A stretch of DNA of 64,000 nt from Anaerolineae bacterium (GCA_030425205.1 JAUIAP010000002.1:186001-250000), one strand, 5' to 3'. Positions 47,987 to 58,269 are shown, numbered from the stretch's first letter. Translations and numbers: made by a program. Notes: a model not told the origin generated them from the sequence alone.

Positions 47987-50158
47987 CTATTGCCCGTTTA
48001 GCGTGGTCTGAGGGCGATGAAAACGCAGTGCGGGATCACCGAGCAGGTTAAAGGTGTGAATCACCTCAGCCAGATACTCTTGATTAGCACTGAGTTGTTT
48101 TGCCATCTGCAACGCTTCACCCAACGTCTCCGCTTCACCAGACAACAATTTTTCATAGAATGAGTTCGCAAGCGGCGTTTGTTGACTGGTCAATGAGCGG
48201 CCAGACGGCGCGACGGCCGCGACAATGCCACCATTGTCTGCCCAAAGCAGTGTCTCTGCGAGGGCATCTTCTGATGGATGGTTGAAGTAGCCGTTGAGAC
48301 AGGTGAAGGTTGTAAAGATGGGGAGTTGCGTTCCGTTGGAAAGCGTGTCCGCATCCGTTTCGCGGAACACCTTTTCCTGCCCCCAAACGCGCACGCTACC
48401 ATGACCGACATAGTTGAGAATGCCGACACCGCCGTTTAGCGCACTGATGATGCTGTCACGGATTTCGCGGTTGTCGGTCATGTGAAGCTTTTGATTTTCA
48501 AAGCCATTGTCGGCAAGCTGGTTGCTCAACTCATCGGAGGCGCGACTAAAGTACTCTTCATCATCGGCGACGAGGAGGGCGCGATCTTGCCACGCCGCGT
48601 TGTCGGTTGTTTCGTAGGCAATGGTTTTACGGACGAGTGTTGCGAGCTGTTCGGCCGATTCCACTGGAAAACGCCCCAATGCAATGTGTGGGGTTAGATC
48701 GTCATCGCTCATCGTTGCAAACCACGTATCGCTGGCCGAATAACCAGCGTACTCGGTAAAGACTTGGTGGGTAGGGAGCAGATTTTGGTTGGTGCTTTCC
48801 GGATTAAACTGGTAGATGTCCCACGATGCATCGCCGACGAGCAGTGCAAAGCGCGGGGCTGGCTGCCAATTTTGGACGGCGTACTGTAGGAACTCGCGGA
48901 TGGCGGATGGTGTTTTTCGGCCGAAACCAAACTCATCATACACCTGATCGAGCGACACACGCGCCACAGAGAGCCCGTTGGCCTCACGATGATCGATCAA
49001 GGGCTGGAGTGTGTCTGCAAACCCTTCCACCTCTGGCACGATCATGACGTAGTCTGCACCGCGTGTCTCATCCGTCAACAACATATCCCACGCAGGCGCA
49101 ACCGTCACCATCGGCACGACAGTCTGATCGGGTCGCAGCACGATATACTCACCGTCTAGCTCACCGTTGGCAAACGCAATGCCATCGCGGGTTGTCTGCC
49201 AACCCGTCAGGAAGACAGGTGCGGCAGGATTGGAAAGGTCAAAGACGAGTGCCTGCTCATCCGCATCATGCACGCGCACGTCTGCGGCATCTGTTTGAAA
49301 GCGCAATGCCTCATTCGAAAGTGTCAAGCTCCCTTTCGACTCAAACTCGGCCCAATCGACATAGATCACGCTGATGAAATTTTCGGTGTCACCCGGCGCG
49401 TTCAAGGTAACGACATTGTTATTGAGGCGAATGGCATCTTTGGGAATGGTCACCTCAAACGAAATCGTGCGTGCGCCGTCCCAAAATTCATCCAATACGA
49501 GCGTGTCATTGAAATAGACTTGCAGATGGTGATCGTTGTCGGTCGGAAATTCATTTTTTGACCACAAACGCAGGCGCAATGTGCCATCCTCGTTCGCAAT
49601 TGGCAAGCTGCCAAATGGGATTTCGAGTTCATCAGGCGCGTAAAGCTGATAGCCAAACCACACGTCTCCCTCGTCGGCCAGCTCCTCATATTCGTTGTTT
49701 TCTTCCCAACGGAGCGTGCGCGTGCCAACATCATTCGCCTCACCAGCGGGCAGTGCGCGGCGCGTATTCATCGCGACGCCCTGCGCGTTTTGCAGCAGGT
49801 AGACAGCGGGCGCGTCCAGCGTGTCGGTTAATGCCTCCGCATAGAAGAACAGCGAATCGTCTTGGAAATGGATCGGAACGGGACGACCAGCACGGGTGAC
49901 ATTGAGATTTTCGGCCGAAAAATCCCCAAAACCTAGCCCGGCACTCTTAACCGTCTCCTGTGAAATGCCGACGATGCCGCTTTCCAGCACTGTCATGCGC
50001 ATGCCACTTGTTGTTGAGCCAACCGGCACGGGTTCAACCTTGATCGGGTCGGGCGAAACAGGGGGCGCAAACCAATTGCCCCCCCACAAAACATACGCTG
50101 CTGCTGCCACAAAAAAGAGAAAAGACAATCCAGAGAGGATCAAGGTTTTTTTCATCAT
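47987..50158 (-). CDS. Membrane-anchored peptidase C25 (gingipain-like) protein, second of two
   Basis: 723 residues. An N-terminal hydrophobic anchor (ILSGLSFLFFVAAAAYVLWG), a beta-rich N-domain, then a caspase-fold C25 protease: LIDHREANGLSVARVSLDQVYDEFGFG, FALLVGDASWD, catalytic His in GILNYVGHGSVRVWG, and Cys in IFTTFTCLNGYFNHPSED; ends near TFNLLGDPALRFH. C25 proteases cleave after Arg or Lys in Bacteroidetes; specificity here is unknown. Its ATG overlaps the previous stop (ATGA at 50155-50158), so translation is coupled to the mucin-like protein. Last gene of the surface-protease operon. Confidence 0.85.
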   Translation of the reverse strand: MMKKTLILSGLSFLFFVAAAAYVLWGGNWFAPPVSPDPIKVEPVPVGSTTSGMRMTVLESGIVGISQETVKSAGLGFGDFSAENLNVTRAGRPVPIHFQDDSLFFYAEALTDTLDAPAVYLLQNAQGVAMNTRRALPAGEANDVGTRTLRWEENNEYEELADEGDVWFGYQLYAPDELEIPFGSLPIANEDGTLRLRLWSKNEFPTDNDHHLQVYFNDTLVLDEFWDGARTISFEVTIPKDAIRLNNNVVTLNAPGDTENFISVIYVDWAEFESKGSLTLSNEALRFQTDAADVRVHDADEQALVFDLSNPAAPVFLTGWQTTRDGIAFANGELDGEYIVLRPDQTVVPMVTVAPAWDMLLTDETRGADYVMIVPEVEGFADTLQPLIDHREANGLSVARVSLDQVYDEFGFGRKTPSAIREFLQYAVQNWQPAPRFALLVGDASWDIYQFNPESTNQNLLPTHQVFTEYAGYSASDTWFATMSDDDLTPHIALGRFPVESAEQLATLVRKTIAYETTDNAAWQDRALLVADDEEYFSRASDELSNQLADNGFENQKLHMTDNREIRDSIISALNGGVGILNYVGHGSVRVWGQEKVFRETDADTLSNGTQLPIFTTFTCLNGYFNHPSEDALAETLLWADNGGIVAAVAPSGRSLTSQQTPLANSFYEKLLSGEAETLGEALQMAKQLSANQEYLAEVIHTFNLLGDPALRFHRPQTTLNGQ

Positions 50159-51399
50159 CGGTTGCGATTCCCGAAAAATAGCAGGGCAAATCCTGTGCCA
50201 ACTAAAATAAGTAAACCACCCGCGACTAGGCCAAACCAGAGAAAAACGCCATTGTCATTGGTTTCTGGCTGCACGACGCTTGGCTGTTGAACATCTGTGA
50301 CTTGTTCACTGAACTCATTGGGACTGCTATTGCTGCCCGCTAACTCGCTAATAGCCACCTCAGTCGGAGATTGCGGAATGAGTTCTGAATCAACGACCGT
50401 TTCCGTTTCAGGATCAATGGCGGTTACTTCCCCTGTTGGCTGACCACTGTCGGAATTTACTGCCTCGCCGATTTGATTTGGCGCGTCATTTTCAGTTGTA
50501 TTGCCCTCATCACTTGCCGACTCTAGTGGCTCATCCGCAAGGGTATTTGAATTACTGTCCACGGTAGACGGAACGACTGCGTTCGTTGTCGGCTGAGTGT
50601 CAGACGAACTGTTGTCTGTCGTTGGTTGCGCGACTGTTGCGGTTGGTGCGTTTGTCTGCCCACCGATTTGTGCGGGTGGTTGGGGCGTGGCTCCGGTTGC
50701 ATCTGGCGTACTGGTTGGAATCGGCCGATTTGTCGCAACGGCTGACGGCGTGACAGTCGGATTGCCAGCACCGCTTGCTGGTGGCGTGATGAATACACGC
50801 CCACTTTCGCTAGTTGCCGTTGCAACTGCTGATGTCGCCGTCGGATCGGATTGAGTCGTCGATGCAGTTGTTGGCGTATTGGCTGGAGATTGTGAAGTTG
50901 CCGTCGCACCGCCACTTGGCGTAGTCGCTTGTTCTGTTGGTACGAGCGTCGGCGTTGTGCCATCGTTTGCCGTCGTCGGAACGGGCGTTGCCGTCGCATT
51001 TGGATTGATCACCGATCCACGTTCGATACGTCCGACCGTTGGCCCATGATACGTTGTGTCGCTGCTTGTATCGATGTCCTCTAGCCAATAGTAGTAAGTT
51101 GTGTTGACCGCGGCAGTCGCATCGGTGACGGTGTAACGGCCACCTGATTCACCTGCTGGTGCAATCGGCCGATTATTAACCCGCACCTTGTTGACAATAG
51201 CGGAAAATTGCGCGGCATTTTCTTCTGTCCGATAAACGTTGTAGCCGACATTTTGTATTTCAGACTCAGTCTCCCAAATGATGGTGATGGTGTCGCCACT
51301 TACCTGAGTGAAGAACGACGTGAGGCCCACGCTGGCAAACGCCGTCGCGGGCAGGAGTAGGAGCAGAAGAAGGTAGAAGAGAAGTGTGTGCTTTTTCAT
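50155..51399 (-). CDS. Secreted mucin-like Fn3 protein with C-terminal anchor
   Basis: About 414 residues. Signal peptide (LLFYLLLLLLLPATAFA), an Fn3-like domain at 24-115 (SFFTQVSGDTITIIWETESE, GYNVYRTEENAAQF, YYYWLEDIDTSSDTTYHGP), then about 250 residues of Thr/Ser/Pro/Ala repeats, and a C-terminal hydrophobic segment followed by FFGNRNR. This is the layout of a stalked surface protein, probably glycosylated. The ATG at 51399 overlaps the stop of the signal-peptidase gene (ATGA) and its stop overlaps the second C25 gene. The Fn3 domain resembles that at 57874-58269. Confidence 0.8.
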   Translation of the reverse strand: MKKHTLLFYLLLLLLLPATAFASVGLTSFFTQVSGDTITIIWETESEIQNVGYNVYRTEENAAQFSAIVNKVRVNNRPIAPAGESGGRYTVTDATAAVNTTYYYWLEDIDTSSDTTYHGPTVGRIERGSVINPNATATPVPTTANDGTTPTLVPTEQATTPSGGATATSQSPANTPTTASTTQSDPTATSAVATATSESGRVFITPPASGAGNPTVTPSAVATNRPIPTSTPDATGATPQPPAQIGGQTNAPTATVAQPTTDNSSSDTQPTTNAVVPSTVDSNSNTLADEPLESASDEGNTTENDAPNQIGEAVNSDSGQPTGEVTAIDPETETVVDSELIPQSPTEVAISELAGSNSSPNEFSEQVTDVQQPSVVQPETNDNGVFLWFGLVAGGLLILVGTGFALLFFGNRNR

Positions 51400-51968
51400 C
51401 GAATCAATAGCAGGATTAGCCTGCGCCATAGCTGGAAAACTGCGCGACCAAACAGAAAAATCGGCCGATGCCAACCCTGTCGCCAGCGCTGTCCCATCAA
51501 TCGTTGTTCCGGCTGCGCCAGTCGAGACCAGTTCAGCGGTTGGTTATCAAAAATTCTTGCTTCTAGTTGGGCTAATCGGCCGAAATGCCGATTTAACCAC
51601 AACCCCTTGCCAACATCCCAGCGTTGGGTTTGAGTCCCACGTCGCCGGCCACAAACCCGACCGACGACTTCAGCATCATTCCAAGCTGGGTCATAGCACA
51701 ATGTACGATCACCGCGTGTCACCCAATAGCGGTGTCCGTCATGATTGAGCGTCGTGACGAGGCGATGGGTGAACAGTGCCTCTGTGCTACGTAAAATCAG
51801 CACGTCATTCGCGGCAATCTCTGCCAGCGCTACACGTTCCAAAATAACCTGATCCCCAACCTGCAACAGCGGCGACATGCTAGCGCTTACGATGGTCAGG
51901 TGGGGATTTTGCCCTGCGTCAAGGCTATCTTGCAACAGCCCGACCAAAACATCTTGCTCAACGATCAT
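51396..51968 (-). CDS. S26 signal peptidase family protein with Ser/His active site
   Basis: 190 residues. The catalytic Ser motif is in LTIVSASMSPLLQVGDQVIL; the second conserved block reads ILRSTEALFTHRLVTTL, with His in the place of the Lys of bacterial leader peptidases, as in the ER/archaeal and SipW-like type. The C-terminal part is basic and ends in a hydrophobic tail. Flanked by a C25 protease upstream (25-base gap) and the mucin-like protein, it is a good candidate for processing the secreted proteins or peptide of this locus. Confidence 0.8.
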   Translation of the reverse strand: MIVEQDVLVGLLQDSLDAGQNPHLTIVSASMSPLLQVGDQVILERVALAEIAANDVLILRSTEALFTHRLVTTLNHDGHRYWVTRGDRTLCYDPAWNDAEVVGRVCGRRRGTQTQRWDVGKGLWLNRHFGRLAQLEARIFDNQPLNWSRLAQPEQRLMGQRWRQGWHRPIFLFGRAVFQLWRRLILLLIR

Positions 51969-51993: not shown

Positions 51994-54993
51994 TTACTTC
52001 AACACAATCGGTAAATAGATCGAACCCGCACCATCCCATACTTTGAGCTGCATGGCGGGATCACCTAATAGGATAAACGTATCATGCAGGTCGATAAATG
52101 TGTTGTTAGGGAGATTGTCTTTTGCTCCATAGACTGCCTGCCCAATGATCCGTTGACCCTCTTCAAAAATCTGCTCGTTAAACCCTTCCCAGAGGAAGTC
52201 ATGACCCGTTGCAACCGCTAGCCCCGTGGGCGCATAGCTGGCAACCGCACCCCCATTTGGATTTTTAAGCATCGTTTCTGACATGCCATCCACTGGCTGA
52301 CCGTTTTGCAGGAAGTCGAAACGATGGTACTGACCTTCCAAACAGGTCATTGGCAGCATGATGGTTAGCTGATTGCCGTTGCGTAGATTTTCCATCTGTG
52401 CAAGTGTCACAATCGACTCATCTGCCCAACGGAATTGCGAGGCATGTCCGACATATGTGACAAACCCCTGACCGTCCTCGACAAGTGAGGTGAATTTACT
52501 TTGCAGCGCAACCGTGTTTGCTTCGTAATGATCTGGATATGGCACATCGTCCTGATGGCAATCGGCGTAAAACAAGCGGTGAATCAGCTGTCCGTGTGGC
52601 GCGGCGTATTGAGAAATCAACTCGTTTGTAATGTTAAAGAAGTCACCCGCTTGGTCGTCGATGCAATTGCTGCCAGAACGCTTCTTCGAGTTGTCGCTCA
52701 CAAATAGCTGGCTGCCATGCCAACTCACGTTGAGCGGGGCATTTTCATAGCTGACCACTTTGTTGACCAACGTTTGCATTTCGCTCACGCTGCTCGCGGG
52801 CAATCGGCCGAGATGCATTGATGGCAATCGGCCGAAATCCATCGTGTCGCTAAACGCCACAAATTGATTGTCGGACGCCGTTTCGCCAATAAATTTGTCG
52901 ATGCCTGAATGTAAATAGACTGGCACAAAATTACGCCCGTTGTTGTTGCCCAACACATCACGATGGTCGTAACTGGCATCGCCGGCAAGCAGGACATAGC
53001 TGGGGGCGGTTCCGCTCCAGTTCGTATAGGCATATTCGAGGAAATTGCGGATGGCTCGGGTGCTATAGCGTCCATAGCCGAACTCGTCAAAAATGTCCTG
53101 TACAAAAACGGTTTTCACCGTCAAACCCTTGTTTTGACGCAATGAAATGAGCGGATTAAGCGCAGATTGCAGTGCTGGGTCAGTGATGATGATGTAATCG
53201 GCCGAATTGCTCCCACGCAAGCTAGACGGTGTATCTTTGACAATGGCTCCCGCGCTGGGTGTGATCGCGCCGTCCGACGTTGCCAATGCGTATGTGGCGG
53301 GGAAGGTCGTTGACGCTTGGGCTGGATTAAAGCTTCTGCCTGAGAGTGTCAACATGGTCGGGTTGTAAACATCCGTTGCATCAAAGACAAAGGCACCATT
53401 CCCAAGCCCGCTTAAGTTGTACGCATAGTTGCCCGCGCTCGGTTGTGAGAATAACAAACGCCCATTAGCCGCTTGTAAGGCACGTTCGTAGGCGACATTG
53501 ATCCATCCCAGCATCATGCTGTGTGGTTCGCCTGATCCGCCGTCTAACGCCTCAACCCCGACGACGAGTGTCGGTGAGTTGCTTGGGGTTACAGTTGCCT
53601 CTAGGACCGTTTTCGCGCCTGCGGTTCCGCTGCCGAAAAAGGTCGTTGGTGCGGCAGACTGCCCTGCGATGCGTAGTTGGACTTTGTGTGTTTCGTTGAG
53701 ATTGCGCCCCCAAATTTCGGCCGATGCGGTCACAGGTGTTCCCGCGACGCGATTCGTCAATGCAAATGTCGCGTTGACGGTCGAGTCAAAATTATCGACG
53801 TTGTAGCCGAAAATTTGCCAAAACCAGTGGTCGTGATCATCTTCTATCTCACTCAGATCATCGAGCGGGATAGAGGAGGCATAAACGCCATCCTGTTCCA
53901 TTCGCACGCCGTGTTGATAGCTGGTCACGGCTGTACCACCGCTGCCAGTCGCCAATGCACCGACGCGCTTGCGACTGCCACTCTGAAATGTTAGCCAGTA
54001 CCTATTGATGTCTGTATCTTGCGTTTCGTAGGTGATGCCCGTGCGTTTTTCCCGATCTGCAATCGACTCACCATAAAATAAAACGTAGTCTGACCCGTCA
54101 AATGCGCCAGTTCCAACAACGTGGACGGCGATCTCTTGGTCGTCGTAACACATTTTTAGGTCGGCCGCGTTGCCCGTTGTAAAGTTGGGCAAATCGGCAC
54201 GACTGATTTTGTGTACGCCTGATTGTGTCACATTGATGCGATACGCATTGCTGCCGACGCAGGGGGAAGGGGCAGGGATATCAAATTCGGGAATGGTGCG
54301 CCAGTTTTGGGCGACGTCCGCATTAATTGGATTTATGAGACCTGCAAACGCTTCACTCTCTGGACGCAAATTTTGTGCGACCGTTTTCCCATTGGGATAA
54401 GAGAAAGTCACCTCTACCGTCAGCTCGTCATAAACTAGCACGCCATCGCCGTCTGTTTGGATGGGGCGCACCGTTAGCGTCGTCAGGCGATAGTCGCGCA
54501 CGTTGTACGGATCGCTTATTTCGACGACCGCATTGGTTGCCGATGCGGCACGGCTATCAAGCGCGTAATGCTCTTCAAATTCAGGAACACTGGTCGGGTC
54601 GTTCTCATCATAGCTGACAAGAATCTTTTCGGGGGCAGGTAATGGGGTGATGTTGGCAAGGGTGTGGGTTTCGGCCGAAATCACCGCCACCTCAGCCACT
54701 GCACCGACAGGGATTGCCACCTTAAACTCTTTGTAGGGAAGCGCTGGCGCACCTTCGATGCGGCTCGTCTCAAATCCGTCAAGCGTGACCTGCTGCCAAC
54801 TGCGACCCGCCTCAATGACGTTTTGCACAGTTGGTTCAGGCTGACGTAACGTCAACCGTAACGTTGTCTCATCAGACTGTTCAACTGTCAGGGCTTCAAG
54901 TTGGGTCGGGGTGTCCGCTTGCACAAGCAAGGGGGTAATCATTACAAGCAGCAGCAATATCAGCAGCCAACTCCGATTAAACTGGTAATTCAT
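51994..54993 (-). CDS. Secreted peptidase C25 (gingipain-like) with YLPIVLK end, first of two
   Basis: About 999 residues. Signal peptide (SWLLILLLLVMITPLLVQA) and a propeptide (TVEQSDETTLRLTLRQPEP; GAPALPYKEFKVAIPVGAVAE) as in the C25 pro-domain. Protease domain from about 600: LISLRQNKGLTVKTVFVQDIFDEFGYG, YVLLAGDASYDH, catalytic His in GFVTYVGHASQFRWA, Cys in IMLPMTCLEGQYHRFD. It ends LGDPAMQLKVWDGAGSIYLPIVLK. The last YLPIVLK is of a type I associate with secreted Chloroflexota proteins. The ATG at 54993 has GGAGG ten bases upstream. First gene of the protease operon. Confidence 0.87.
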   Translation of the reverse strand: MNYQFNRSWLLILLLLVMITPLLVQADTPTQLEALTVEQSDETTLRLTLRQPEPTVQNVIEAGRSWQQVTLDGFETSRIEGAPALPYKEFKVAIPVGAVAEVAVISAETHTLANITPLPAPEKILVSYDENDPTSVPEFEEHYALDSRAASATNAVVEISDPYNVRDYRLTTLTVRPIQTDGDGVLVYDELTVEVTFSYPNGKTVAQNLRPESEAFAGLINPINADVAQNWRTIPEFDIPAPSPCVGSNAYRINVTQSGVHKISRADLPNFTTGNAADLKMCYDDQEIAVHVVGTGAFDGSDYVLFYGESIADREKRTGITYETQDTDINRYWLTFQSGSRKRVGALATGSGGTAVTSYQHGVRMEQDGVYASSIPLDDLSEIEDDHDHWFWQIFGYNVDNFDSTVNATFALTNRVAGTPVTASAEIWGRNLNETHKVQLRIAGQSAAPTTFFGSGTAGAKTVLEATVTPSNSPTLVVGVEALDGGSGEPHSMMLGWINVAYERALQAANGRLLFSQPSAGNYAYNLSGLGNGAFVFDATDVYNPTMLTLSGRSFNPAQASTTFPATYALATSDGAITPSAGAIVKDTPSSLRGSNSADYIIITDPALQSALNPLISLRQNKGLTVKTVFVQDIFDEFGYGRYSTRAIRNFLEYAYTNWSGTAPSYVLLAGDASYDHRDVLGNNNGRNFVPVYLHSGIDKFIGETASDNQFVAFSDTMDFGRLPSMHLGRLPASSVSEMQTLVNKVVSYENAPLNVSWHGSQLFVSDNSKKRSGSNCIDDQAGDFFNITNELISQYAAPHGQLIHRLFYADCHQDDVPYPDHYEANTVALQSKFTSLVEDGQGFVTYVGHASQFRWADESIVTLAQMENLRNGNQLTIMLPMTCLEGQYHRFDFLQNGQPVDGMSETMLKNPNGGAVASYAPTGLAVATGHDFLWEGFNEQIFEEGQRIIGQAVYGAKDNLPNNTFIDLHDTFILLGDPAMQLKVWDGAGSIYLPIVLK

Positions 54994-55029: not shown

Positions 55030-55286
55030 CTAAGTCATTCTGTCGTGCGACTTAAACCACAACGCTGATTGTTCTACTTTGCAGATTGGACTTTCCACGT
55101 GTCTACACAATTTGAGGGATTGCAAAAGATGAAATGCGCTGTGCGTCCTTGTATAGCAGTCTCACAATGTAAGTCCATTCTTGATCAAATGTATTGTACA
55201 AAGGGTTGACGCTTTAGGATTTGAGTTGTCGGGGCTGTTAGTTGACTCTCACCAACGTACAGGCTTGTGGGTATAGAAACAGAAAA
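55030..55286. other. Intergenic region before the C25 operon
   Basis: The gap between the peptide-gene terminator and the C25 operon. It must hold the promoter of the protease operon, but I see no confident -35/-10 pair on the minus strand. No second peptide gene was recognised here. Confidence 0.35.
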
Positions 55287-55321
55287 CGTGAATGCACAGG
55301 GCATGACCCTGCGTATTCACG
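55287..55321 (-). terminator. Terminator after the peptide gene
   Basis: CGTGAAT and ATTCACG arms with inner CAGGG/CCCTG and a 5-base loop (55287-55301/55307-55321; 7 + 5 bp with an internal 3-base bulge). A T-run follows on both strands. It lies 30 bases after the stop of the peptide gene and separates it from the protease operon. Confidence 0.75.
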
Positions 55322-55351
55322 CTTTTTGTTAGTGTATGAGGGGATATCGAA

Positions 55352-55501
55352 CTAGCTATTCAAAACGCTGCAAGATGTATCGCCTTTGCCGGGATTAACG
55401 GGGTCGCTTGGATCACAAACAGCGGCCACGCTTTCCATCGCTTGACGGTAGACAACTTCGGGTTTCTCGTAACTTTTCTTGGTTTCTTGAACCTTAGTCA
55501 T
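55352..55501 (-). CDS. Candidate RiPP precursor peptide (49 residues)
   Basis: Starts at 55501 with GGAG seven bases upstream. The first ~25 residues (MTKVQETKKSYEKPEVVYRQ and on) look like a leader; the Y-E-K-P motif recalls the YxxP leader motif bound by PqqD/RRE domains in lasso-peptide systems. The C-terminal part is Pro/Gly/Asp/Ser-rich with two Cys (residues 29 and 44) and ends CSVLNS. It sits right after a radical SAM/SPASM enzyme, a PqqD-like and an HprK-like gene, and before a strong terminator. Peptide and modification are inferred from this context; no similar characterised family is claimed. Confidence 0.75.
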   Translation of the reverse strand: MTKVQETKKSYEKPEVVYRQAMESVAAVCDPSDPVNPGKGDTSCSVLNS

Positions 55502-55611
55502 GAAATTCTCCTTAACAGACTTTATTGGCTTGAAGCCGGTTAACTCTTGTTTACGCACGCAGGCGCGTTTCGTACTTATTTGTAACGCAAAAGCGCAAAA
55601 TAAGCGAATGG

Positions 55612-56724
55612 TTAGCACCCATTAAAGGGATCATCTTTTCCACTGCTATCAATTGCCAGTGCGATATTTTCATTCGCATGATATGCTTGACGACGCAGCC
55701 GCGCCTCACGATAGGCGACCGACGAACAGCCTAGCATATCACCATCTTCAAAGGCGGCTGTCCCATGACAGCGCACACAGAATTCACGTAATTCACAAGT
55801 TGCACAGACGGGTAATTTTGTCAGTGCTAAGCTGCCGGTCTCTTCCCAGACGGGCGACTCTTGCCAAATGTCGCGCAGATCACTCTGACGCAAGTTGCCA
55901 GCAGAGACCCTTGCCCCAACACAAGTATAGATTTCGCCATAGGGGCTGATCGCCAAACTGTTCAGACCGATGCCGCAAAAGCGGAAGTCGTCGTTGGCAA
56001 TCGTGCGTGTCCAAGTACTAGGCGAAATTCGTTCGCGCATGAACTTGAGCATTTGGTCATCACTCGGCCGATGTTGCAGCGGAGCTGGATCACCCGTATG
56101 TTTTGGAATGATGGTCGTGTCGTATTGGAAACGTATCTGTTTTTGTGCCGCAAAGTTAAACAGTTCATCAAACTCGTCGATGTTCTCTTTCATCAATGGG
56201 GCTTTCATCAGCACGCGCACACCACGCTCTAGCAGCAGATCAATCGCCTGAACCGTCAAGTCCCATGAACCTGGCACTTGGGTGATGGCATCATGCACAT
56301 CGGCACGATGGCTATATAGGCTAACCTCTGTCACGACGGGCTTAACGGCCGCTATTTCATCAGCGAGCTTCGCATTGACTAAGATGCCATTGGTGAAGAA
56401 GCGCACGGCAAAGCCACGCTTACGCGCATAGCGCGCGATATCAAACACATCGTCACGAATGAACAATTCACCTCCTGAGAAGGTGATCGTCAGACCCCCT
56501 AGCGCAGCCAACTCATCGACGACGCGATAGGCTTCTTCCGTTGTTAATTCGCCGGGAACTTTTGCGCCTGGCGGCATTACGTCAAGATAGCAATGGGTGC
56601 ATCGTTCGTTACAACGGTAGGTCAACTCCCAGTGGATAGAGAGCAGGCGGTGGGTAAATTGCGTCTTGGTATAGATGCGATTGTAATCGTTTAGGGTAGG
56701 GGTCTCGGTGTATTGTTCGCTCAT
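55612..56724 (-). CDS. Radical SAM/SPASM-type peptide-modifying enzyme
   Basis: 370 residues. The 4Fe-4S/SAM motif is C38-x3-C42-x2-C45 (TYRCNERCTHCYLDV), followed by the GGE block (LTITFSGGELFIRDD). The C-terminal region holds a SPASM-like Cys set (FCGIGLNSLAISPYGEIYTC and VCATCELREFCVRCHG, plus a late Cys) for extra clusters. Such enzymes install carbon or sulfur crosslinks on RiPP precursors. The ATG overlaps the PqqD stop by one base (TAATG); the peptide gene starts 110 bases downstream. Confidence 0.88.
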   Translation of the reverse strand: MSEQYTETPTLNDYNRIYTKTQFTHRLLSIHWELTYRCNERCTHCYLDVMPPGAKVPGELTTEEAYRVVDELAALGGLTITFSGGELFIRDDVFDIARYARKRGFAVRFFTNGILVNAKLADEIAAVKPVVTEVSLYSHRADVHDAITQVPGSWDLTVQAIDLLLERGVRVLMKAPLMKENIDEFDELFNFAAQKQIRFQYDTTIIPKHTGDPAPLQHRPSDDQMLKFMRERISPSTWTRTIANDDFRFCGIGLNSLAISPYGEIYTCVGARVSAGNLRQSDLRDIWQESPVWEETGSLALTKLPVCATCELREFCVRCHGTAAFEDGDMLGCSSVAYREARLRRQAYHANENIALAIDSSGKDDPFNGC

Positions 56725-57005
56725 TACATCTCATTGAGGGTAAGAACTTGGTGGTTAACCAGCTCTTTGACGAAGGCGAGTGTGTCGCTCTCCGCATCTG
56801 CTCGGTCTACATTATATTCTTGCACAATTGTCTCGACAATTTGTTCAAGAGAAGTTTCGCCGTCGATTAGCTCAAAGATACGTGATCCGACCGCGTTGAG
56901 TACATTCACTTCGGCCGAATCGGACAAAATTAAGACCGCCTCGCCGTCGATCACACGCCCTGCCGTTTGCGGATGAGGCTCTGGATATGTTTTCGCCAAA
57001 TTCAT
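56724..57005 (-). CDS. PqqD-like peptide-binding protein
   Basis: 93 residues with the PqqD/RRE pattern: GEAVLILSDSAEVNVLNAVGSRIFELIDGETSLEQIVETIVQEYNVD followed by a helical end. These small winged-helix proteins bind the leader of RiPP precursors and hand them to the radical SAM enzyme, here encoded next. The ATG overlaps the HprK-like stop (ATGA) and the stop overlaps the radical SAM start, so all three are coupled. Confidence 0.87.
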   Translation of the reverse strand: MNLAKTYPEPHPQTAGRVIDGEAVLILSDSAEVNVLNAVGSRIFELIDGETSLEQIVETIVQEYNVDRADAESDTLAFVKELVNHQVLTLNEM

Positions 57006-57868
57006 GCTTCAATTACCTTCCAAAATTCTGGGGTTCGGTTGAAATAAAGTTCGCGCACTGGCACATGTTGCGCCAATCGATAACAGGTCGTTAATAGTTC
57101 GTTGCCCAAGGCACTGTGTTGCACAATAAAGGGTGCTGACGCGCCTAATTCAGCGACAGCCAACACAGTTGAGAGGGGTTCTACATGAGACCATACGTCT
57201 TGCTGAAGCCGATAAATGCCTTTTAATGGCACGCTCATATTGCGCGGCGGGAAATGCGTCAGTTCGCCAAAGAAAGGTACACCACAAAGATGATACGTTT
57301 CGCCTTTTTTGCGAATGATGACAATATCGTCGCTGAGAATGGTGGCAACATCGGCCGATAATCCCGCCGTCGTGCTTTTCCCCGCACCGCTCGGCCCAAA
57401 AAAGACAAACCCTTGACCATCTTTAACGACGCCAGCCGCGTGCAGCAGCAGAGAATCGTGTTGCAAACAGAGCCACGCATAAACCACGCGCAAGAAGTTC
57501 TCGATATCGGCCGTGGGCGCAAGCTCAATCGTTGCCCGTCGTGTGACGAGATTGAGTTCGCCGCGCTCACGATAAGATTCGTAATGCAAGATATCGCCGT
57601 CAAGCGCGACGTTGCTAATCCAAGTTGAGTTGGGTTCTGCGTCGATGAAGCGCGCGCCCTCCGTCAAAATGCACTCAATTGTGACTTGCGGCGGCTGCGC
57701 TGAGGTAAGAAAGAGATCGTAACGTTGGCGTAATCGCGCCATCAGATCAGATGGCGGTAGCGTTACGGCAACCGTTAAATCAGCGATGGTGATGGTAAGC
57801 GTTTCCTTCAAGCTCCGTTTCTCCGAAAGTTCAAGGCGATGGTAGCACGTGGCAGGGGGTGGGGGCAA
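57002..57868 (-). CDS. HPr-kinase-like P-loop protein of RiPP cluster
   Basis: About 289 residues. An N-terminal beta domain of unknown fold and a C-terminal P-loop (GFVFFGPSGAGKSTTAGL at about 155-172), then ATILSDDIVIIR and GVPFFGELTHFP. This is the pattern of HprK-related kinases that accompany PqqD-like proteins in RiPP clusters, where some phosphorylate the precursor. The substrate here is unknown. The start codon is uncertain: TTG at 57868 or a nearby TTG; the gene is 5 bases from the Fn3-like gene and overlaps the PqqD-like gene. Confidence 0.75.
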   Translation of the reverse strand: MPPPPATCYHRLELSEKRSLKETLTITIADLTVAVTLPPSDLMARLRQRYDLFLTSAQPPQVTIECILTEGARFIDAEPNSTWISNVALDGDILHYESYRERGELNLVTRRATIELAPTADIENFLRVVYAWLCLQHDSLLLHAAGVVKDGQGFVFFGPSGAGKSTTAGLSADVATILSDDIVIIRKKGETYHLCGVPFFGELTHFPPRNMSVPLKGIYRLQQDVWSHVEPLSTVLAVAELGASAPFIVQHSALGNELLTTCYRLAQHVPVRELYFNRTPEFWKVIEA

Positions 57869-57873
57869 ACTTG

Positions 57874-58269
57874 CTAAGGGGGTGGTAAGATGATCGGCTC
57901 TTCCATCAGCTCGCTGTCACCGTCACGAAAGATAGTTTGCAACTTATAGTAGTAGCGTGTGCCATTTTCGGCCGATTCATCGACATATTGATAGTCACTG
58001 TTGGCAAGTGGGTCGTCGGTGGGGGGAATCGGCCGATCTGTAATTTGCAAATACTCCCCCTCAGCCGTATCTGCACGATAGACATGGAAACCCAAAATAT
58101 CGAGCGTGTTCTCGGTCGTCCATGTCAGCACATAGCCGCTCGGTTGTGTCACGTAGCGATAGATTCCCACGCCCGCAACGACCAACGCCGCAACGATAAT
58201 GATGATGAGCAGATAGTCGATGAGCGTGCGTTGGCGGTTGTTAGCGTCCTGAACGTTTTCTTGACTCAA
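57874..58269 (-). CDS. Membrane-anchored Fn3-like small protein at head of RiPP cluster
   Basis: 131 residues. A polar N terminus, one membrane segment (LIDYLLIIIIVAALVVAGVGIYRYV), then a single Fn3-like domain outside (GYVLTWTTENTLDILGFHVYRA, YQYVDESAENGTRYYYKLQTI). The Fn3-like part resembles that of the mucin-like protein at 50155-51399 (WETESEIQNVGYNVYR; TTYYYWLED). First gene of the cluster, 5 bases ahead of the HprK-like gene, so probably part of the same machinery. Role unknown. Confidence 0.75.
   Translation of the reverse strand: MSQENVQDANNRQRTLIDYLLIIIIVAALVVAGVGIYRYVTQPSGYVLTWTTENTLDILGFHVYRADTAEGEYLQITDRPIPPTDDPLANSDYQYVDESAENGTRYYYKLQTIFRDGDSELMEEPIILPPP

Follow-up and report, generated by a model that had tools for sequence, protein, structure and literature searches.

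Organization of the peptide locus

The DNA analysed is a 64,000-nt stretch of an Anaerolineae bacterium genome (GCA_030425205.1, JAUIAP010000002.1:186001-250000), referred to below as the window, in which a peptide locus with all its genes on the minus strand extends from 58269 down to 47987 and comprises the following features.

57874..58269, minus: Fn3-TM (131 aa, TTG start), short membrane protein anchored by its N-terminus, with a single Fn3-like domain
57002..57811, minus: HprK-like kinase (269 aa), TTG start placed from homology
56724..57005, minus: PqqD-family RiPP recognition element (RRE; 93 aa; PF05402, 1.3e-15)
55612..56724, minus: radical SAM/SPASM enzyme (rSAM; 370 aa; PF04055, 3e-23; PF13186, 6.5e-8)
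55352..55501, minus: precursor peptide (49 aa, own ribosome-binding site), MTKVQETKKSYEKPEVVYRQAMESVA/AVCDPSDPVNPGKGDTSCSVLNS, the slash marking the predicted leader cleavage here and in motifs below
55424..55501, minus: predicted leader, residues 1-26, with the YxxP RRE motif and a -3 Ser/-1 Ala cleavage signal
55355..55423, minus: predicted core, residues 27-49, with Cys3, GK, Cys18 and a C-terminal Ser
55278..55330, minus: intrinsic terminator 3' of the peptide gene
51994..54993, minus: C25L, long PorU/gingipain-like C25 protease (PF01364, 1.8e-78; PF08126, 1.5e-12)
51396..51968, minus: S26, archaeal/SipW-type signal peptidase homologue (TIGR02228, 1.2e-12, below cut-off), the proposed leader peptidase
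50155..51399, minus: Fn3b, with a signal peptide, an Fn3-like region, a low-complexity linker and a C-terminal TM segment plus basic tail
47987..50158, minus: C25S, short PorU-like C25 protease (PF01364, 1.7e-87)

The five minus-strand genes of the original prediction are all present where it placed them, between 55352 and 58269, the kinase and PqqD genes overlapping by 4 nt and the PqqD and rSAM genes by 1 nt, but the gap between the kinase and Fn3-TM genes, given as about 5 nt, becomes 62 nt once the kinase start is set by homology at the TTG at 57811. The good ribosome-binding site described for the peptide is AAGGAG, 6 nt upstream of the ATG, and the terminator placed behind the peptide gene is indeed a strong one (-29.4 kcal/mol, z = -7.8 against shuffles). 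The lower limit of the locus has to be moved: by synteny, four downstream genes (C25L, S26, Fn3b and C25S) belong to it, the S26 gene lying 3.4 kb downstream, beyond the terminator. The results computed here are the gene set and its synteny, the conservation of the peptide, the residues for catalysis and contact, and the association of core cysteines with the rSAM.

A conserved family of precursor peptides

In other Anaerolineae, where the original prediction had suggested looking as part of a wider search of Chloroflexota, the peptide and an orthologue of the rSAM were found together. Immediately behind each of four orthologous rSAM genes, three with 65-70% identity (G015, G008, G012) and one with 48% (G049), there is an ORF of 49-56 aa with the pattern KKxYxxPxVxxxQxxE..A..C...C...S, so that KK, Y, P, Q, E, A, two Cys and the final Ser are common to these peptides. 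With a profile built from the five peptides, one more genome (G072) was found to encode this peptide as well (E 4e-20). Found in these four cases from its place after the rSAM gene, the short peptide is real and not a chance ORF; absence of a conserved peptide beside homologous rSAM genes and stops in relatives, the two observations named beforehand as speaking against a RiPP pathway, were examined, and the claim stands. NCBIfam holds no model for the peptide family, and its profile matched none of the PDB chains.

The leader motif reads YEKP in the window peptide. Residue -1 is Ala in 78 of 85 related peptides and residue -3 is A, V, T or S in 81 of them, which, judged from the sequences of these 85 peptides, is the classical signal-peptidase rule. 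Sorted by context, the peptides fall into three types: Cys3 (xxC..GK..C..S), W-leader ending FC[TVHY], and Cys-less (GSPL..). Cores differ in sequence and are 19-32 aa long. Of the 32 in the C3 class, 29 have Cys at position 3, 31 carry a Lys in the segment between the Cys residues, and 29 end in Ser. This terminal Ser is found in 31 of 36 Cys3-type peptides versus 3 of 56 Cys-less ones, whose second core residue is in most cases Ser or Thr. We considered the C-terminal Ser as a general sign of HprK, and this is ruled out, since the Cys-less peptides accompanied by HprK have none, their conserved hydroxyl being the Ser/Thr at core position 2.

Two further groups deserve mention. The W-leader class (WxEP...A/xGP...; L020, L171, L181, L184, L202, L204) carries its Cys beside the C-terminus (FC[TVHY]) and has its own rSAM, with NTP_transf_5 and Wzz genes often present. 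Orphan peptides of the form YxxP...TRA/GSP...DPADLFG, with no recognised RiPP gene nearby, occur in the window's own genome (G000:C66, L165) and in many f1-family loci (L152-L176); another, from the same genus (L164), adjoins a distant HprK-like gene.

Core cysteines go together with the radical SAM enzyme

The CxxxCxxC motif (C38-C42-C45) and the SPASM cysteines (C250, C268, C307, C310, C316, C319) are present, with conservation of Cys across 55 homologues. The enzyme matches MftC (9e-37), the sactipeptide maturase StsB (4e-33), AlbA and PqqE (1e-21 each), all far below the curated cut-offs. Among loci flanked by 3 kb or more on both sides, and taking an rSAM within 4 kb as in cis, 25 had both a core Cys and the rSAM, 2 the rSAM only, 5 Cys only and 34 neither (p=3.7e-11, which overstates independence because the loci are related and the rSAM label changes just 2-3 times on the kinase tree); where PqqD or HprK was also in cis, the corresponding numbers were 22, 1, 0 and 11. 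Some of the five Cys peptides without an rSAM in cis are presumably served in trans. One locus (L149, G061) retains only a broken SPASM remnant between PqqD and a peptide without Cys; in its sister L034, the rSAM and a Cys peptide are both intact. L180, with a distant rSAM and a peptide without Cys, is an exception. In the cassettes compared, the rSAM is an optional element, and the peptides of sister cassettes that do without it have no Cys.

Eight such sister cassettes (L108, L111, L151, L155, L166, L172, L191, L199) contain C25, S26 and PqqD, the last often immediately after S26, and no rSAM; their Cys-less peptides read A/GSPLxxPDP....

Kinase, recognition element and signal peptidase homologue

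The best NCBIfam matches of the kinase, HprK_rel_B (4e-12), ScmC (3e-8) and HprK_rel_A (2e-7), are all below cut-off. Its P-loop GPSGAGKST, H124 and D161 vary little or not at all among 20 homologues, and as modelled (pLDDT 93) it is of the HprK/PEPCK fold, resembling PEPCK/HprK kinases. PqqD residues N37 and D74 align in PDB 9x8z with N33 and D70 of LppB, the RRE of the linear polyphosphorylated peptides (LPP) of Bacillota, in which these two residues hold the YxxP motif (Popov et al. 2026, PMC13381572). The chain numbering is offset by 18, as derived from the printed chain, and we take 9x8z as LppB because both residues then fit. The closest solved RREs include the lasso B1 proteins TbiB1 and TfuB1. 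S26, whose profile matches SEC11 structures, keeps S30/H68/D93 in 22 or more of 23 homologues; as it is recognised in only 20 of 38 rSAM loci, it may not act as leader peptidase everywhere.

The host genome has two other PqqD loci. One (G000:C98, L026, 7700-10163) consists of a Wzz/ATPase-type gene, Fn3-TM and PqqD, and resembles a locus in G015:C2 (L213), both without kinase, rSAM or visible precursor; in the other (G000:C1, L025, 10661-11937), PqqD has a weak HprK-like ORF on the opposite strand, and a precursor was not seen.

C25 proteases and Fn3 proteins

C25L has a signal peptide, a C25 propeptide domain and the C-terminal sequence YLPIVLK. It matches NF033707 (T9SS sortase) at 1.9e-86, below the cut-off, C25L and C25S scoring 291 and 265 bits against a required 420. 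H850/C884 of C25L are conserved, as are H586/C620 of C25S (16/16). The order C25L, S26, Fn3b, C25S is the same in G015, G008 and L029, with a more divergent form elsewhere. Among 38 non-duplicate loci with an rSAM plus HprK or PqqD, 29 have C25, 20 S26 and 22 an Fn3 protein, all of them lower bounds since several contigs are incomplete, and 7 have Wzz-type genes; C25 is also present in 6 of 12 rSAM-less loci with PqqD and peptide. Since C25 is rare genome-wide (about 10 genes in the 7.8 Mb host genome; just two each in G049 and G072, both in the cassette), this proximity is far above chance. C25 pairs are also seen without a recognised peptide in the same genomes, which together with L038, a locus without C25, rules out C25 as an obligate partner: over these loci the C25-peptide link is frequent, not obligate. 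A literature search for PqqD with C25 gave no relevant pairing in the open literature searched.

The last residues of 27 of 48 C25L proteins contain [YFW]LPxx, compared with 8 of the 835 other ORFs in these loci, and those of Fn3b do so in 8 of 38; it is possibly a sorting or recognition signal. In L019 (G049), Fn3b and an S26-like domain form one protein, as they do, judged from the start sequence, in L177 and L185 too.

Orthologues of Fn3-TM occupy the same position in G008, G015 and L029. The predicted Fn3 membrane protein found no fn3 match in a Pfam search, but its AlphaFold model (pLDDT 84), with one N-terminal helix (H4-40) followed by a beta-sandwich, has FnIII domains as its best, weak PDB matches (E 3e-3). 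Its gene is not, as had been thought, the distinguishing head of the RiPP part; it encodes one of two Fn3 proteins that accompany the C25 part.

Distribution across genomes and phyla

Scanning named genomes yielded 39 rSAM loci, and most of the closer ones have the same kind of peptide behind the rSAM, including, outside Chloroflexota, loci in Acidobacteriota (L033, L036, L038) and Verrucomicrobiota (L043), with more divergent peptides in Bdellovibrionota (L047, L048). Searched with a profile, 83 of 396 genomes of the class had leaders of this kind, whereas a phylum-wide profile search gave only 6 of 400; thus the peptide family is concentrated in the class. A plasmid search returned nothing closer than rSAM proteins of 28% identity, and PADLOC gave only distant viperin-type rSAM similarity. 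The gene set looks like a widespread one, spread over several phyla, and like a relative of the peptide family described in 2026.

Discussion

We think it probable that the window holds a RiPP locus related to LPP, with a radical SAM/SPASM enzyme as an extension and a coupled module of surface proteases. From the computed results we infer all the chemistry, the bond type, the order of steps, the cleavage and phosphorylation sites, export, the role of C25 and the function, in the following scheme. The YEKP leader would be bound by PqqD via N37/D74, and the rSAM might then make thioether-type cross-links from core Cys3 and Cys18, the acceptor most likely lying in the conserved GK region. The HprK-like kinase would phosphorylate a Ser of the core, most probably Ser49 at the C-terminus, for which paeninodin kinases offer a precedent (PMC8498205). 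The S26 peptidase would perhaps remove the leader after Ala26 (SVA/AVC), and the product, having left the cytoplasm, would meet the Fn3/C25 envelope proteins that process it, anchor it or respond to it.

Let us consider other scenarios. The closeness of the rSAM to StsB and AlbA and the two conserved Cys per core would suit a plain sactipeptide or ranthipeptide, with thioether cross-linking by the rSAM as the central event and kinase, S26 and C25 as incidental neighbours; we regard this as unlikely, since the kinase and PqqD accompany the peptide without rSAM or Cys (L109, L111, L112, L190, L196), which makes the rSAM an add-on, and the C25/S26 genes recur across families. Manufacture of a small redox cofactor from the peptide, as for PQQ or mycofactocin, might be read from the presence of PqqD and the MftC and PqqE matches. 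Every such score, however, is far below the curated cut-offs, the cores vary over 19-32 aa, no mycofactocin or PQQ genes lie alongside and sister loci do without the rSAM, leaving this reading very improbable. Scarcely any weight goes to a degraded or variant lasso peptide locus: the YxxP leader, PqqD and HprK are as in paeninodin clusters, TbiB1 and TfuB1 are among the closest solved RREs and the kinase type is shared, but the flanking window ORFs scanned contain no macrolactam cyclase (Asn-synthetase-like) or B2 protease, and the peptide has neither Gly1 with a ring Asp/Glu pattern nor Thr at -2. The cofactor and lasso readings are rejected on this score, gene-content and core-pattern evidence.

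Somewhat less doubtful, and compatible with the biosynthesis proposed here, is that the peptide serves the C25 system, either as a modified surface peptide attached covalently by PorU-like proteins or as a regulator of the C25 proteases. The frequency of C25 in loci with and without rSAM, the [YFW]LP.. ends of C25L, the Wzz-type genes and the S26-Fn3b fusion all point this way; against it, the same genomes hold C25 pairs with no recognised peptide, and no sequence signal is common to the precursor and the C25L C-terminus. In a bolder and rather unlikely version, the phosphorylated, cross-linked peptide would be a surface tag joined by the PorU-like C25 sortase pair to envelope proteins or polysaccharide, with the C-terminal [YFW]LP.. 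of C25L and of some Fn3 proteins as part of the sorting signal; if this were true, Chloroflexota would have a peptide-based surface-attachment system.

A RiPP logic of kinase, RRE and signal peptidase, published in 2026 as limited to Bacillota, is found here in Chloroflexota and in at least three further phyla. Because the rSAM is present in some natural versions and absent from others, the target residues of this enzyme can be read from evolution. The conserved precursor family is new to NCBIfam and comes with a defined cleavage prediction. A link between RiPPs and C25 proteases of the gingipain/PorU type is seen here outside Bacteroidota, a combination that we did not find in the open literature searched.

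Comparison with known systems

HprK-like, PqqD-like and SPASM rSAM genes occur together in the SynChlorMet cassette (NCBIfam ScmC/ScmD/ScmE/ScmF). Our locus has one rSAM rather than two and adds C25/S26 genes; assignment to SynChlorMet was rejected on this single rSAM and on bit scores far below the cut-offs (ScmC 33.5/125, ScmD 30/100, ScmE 94/400). A SPASM rSAM and a Cys-containing core are shared with sactipeptides of the AlbA and StsB type, from which the locus differs in its stand-alone RRE, kinase and S26 peptidase, the thioether here being predicted. C25L and C25S resemble the T9SS sortase PorU and gingipains in matching NF033707 and PF01364 and in their His/Cys dyad, but score below cut-off, belong to a host outside Bacteroidota and adjoin a RiPP locus. 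The paeninodin-type phosphorylated lasso peptides (ThcoK, pseudomycoidin; reviewed in PMC8498205) share the HprK-like kinase with a conserved precursor C-terminal Ser and the stand-alone PqqD-type B1, whereas the window locus has an rSAM in place of lasso cyclase and B2 protease, and Tyr rather than Trp in the leader motif.

The closest likeness is to LPP, described as restricted to Bacillota, whose parts include the RRE LppB, the kinase LppK and the SipW-like peptidase LppS and whose precursors carry the motif YxxPxVLxHQxIxFET/xxS, with core Ser3 phosphorylated (PMC13381572). The leader spacing is identical (Y-16, P-13, V-11, hydrophobic -11 and -10, core residue 3), and the window locus likewise has a stand-alone RRE with the Asn and Asp contacts, an HprK-like kinase gene and a SipW-like S26 with the triad S30/H68/D93, against S29/H68/D93 in LppS. 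Some members lie in capsule-type neighbourhoods, and relatives have NTP_transf_5 (L019, L099, L181, L184) or an ABC exporter (L024, L100). In contrast to LPP, the window peptide and 29 of 32 class members have Cys in place of the phosphorylated Ser3, the leader ends in E[AS]xA instead of FET, a radical SAM/SPASM enzyme, two C25 proteases and two Fn3 proteins are added, and the loci are found in Chloroflexota and other phyla. Because of the replaced phospho-Ser3, and because neither an NTP transferase nor an MsbA-like exporter was found among the window genes scanned, we do not claim LPP membership. The simplest reading, by analogy, would be that the locus works like LPP with an rSAM added. Of the new RiPP pathway originally predicted, the RiPP part is well supported by the YxxP leader, the Cys in step with the rSAM and the RRE contacts, and since leader, RRE, kinase and S26 match LPP, the new pathway becomes a new variant.
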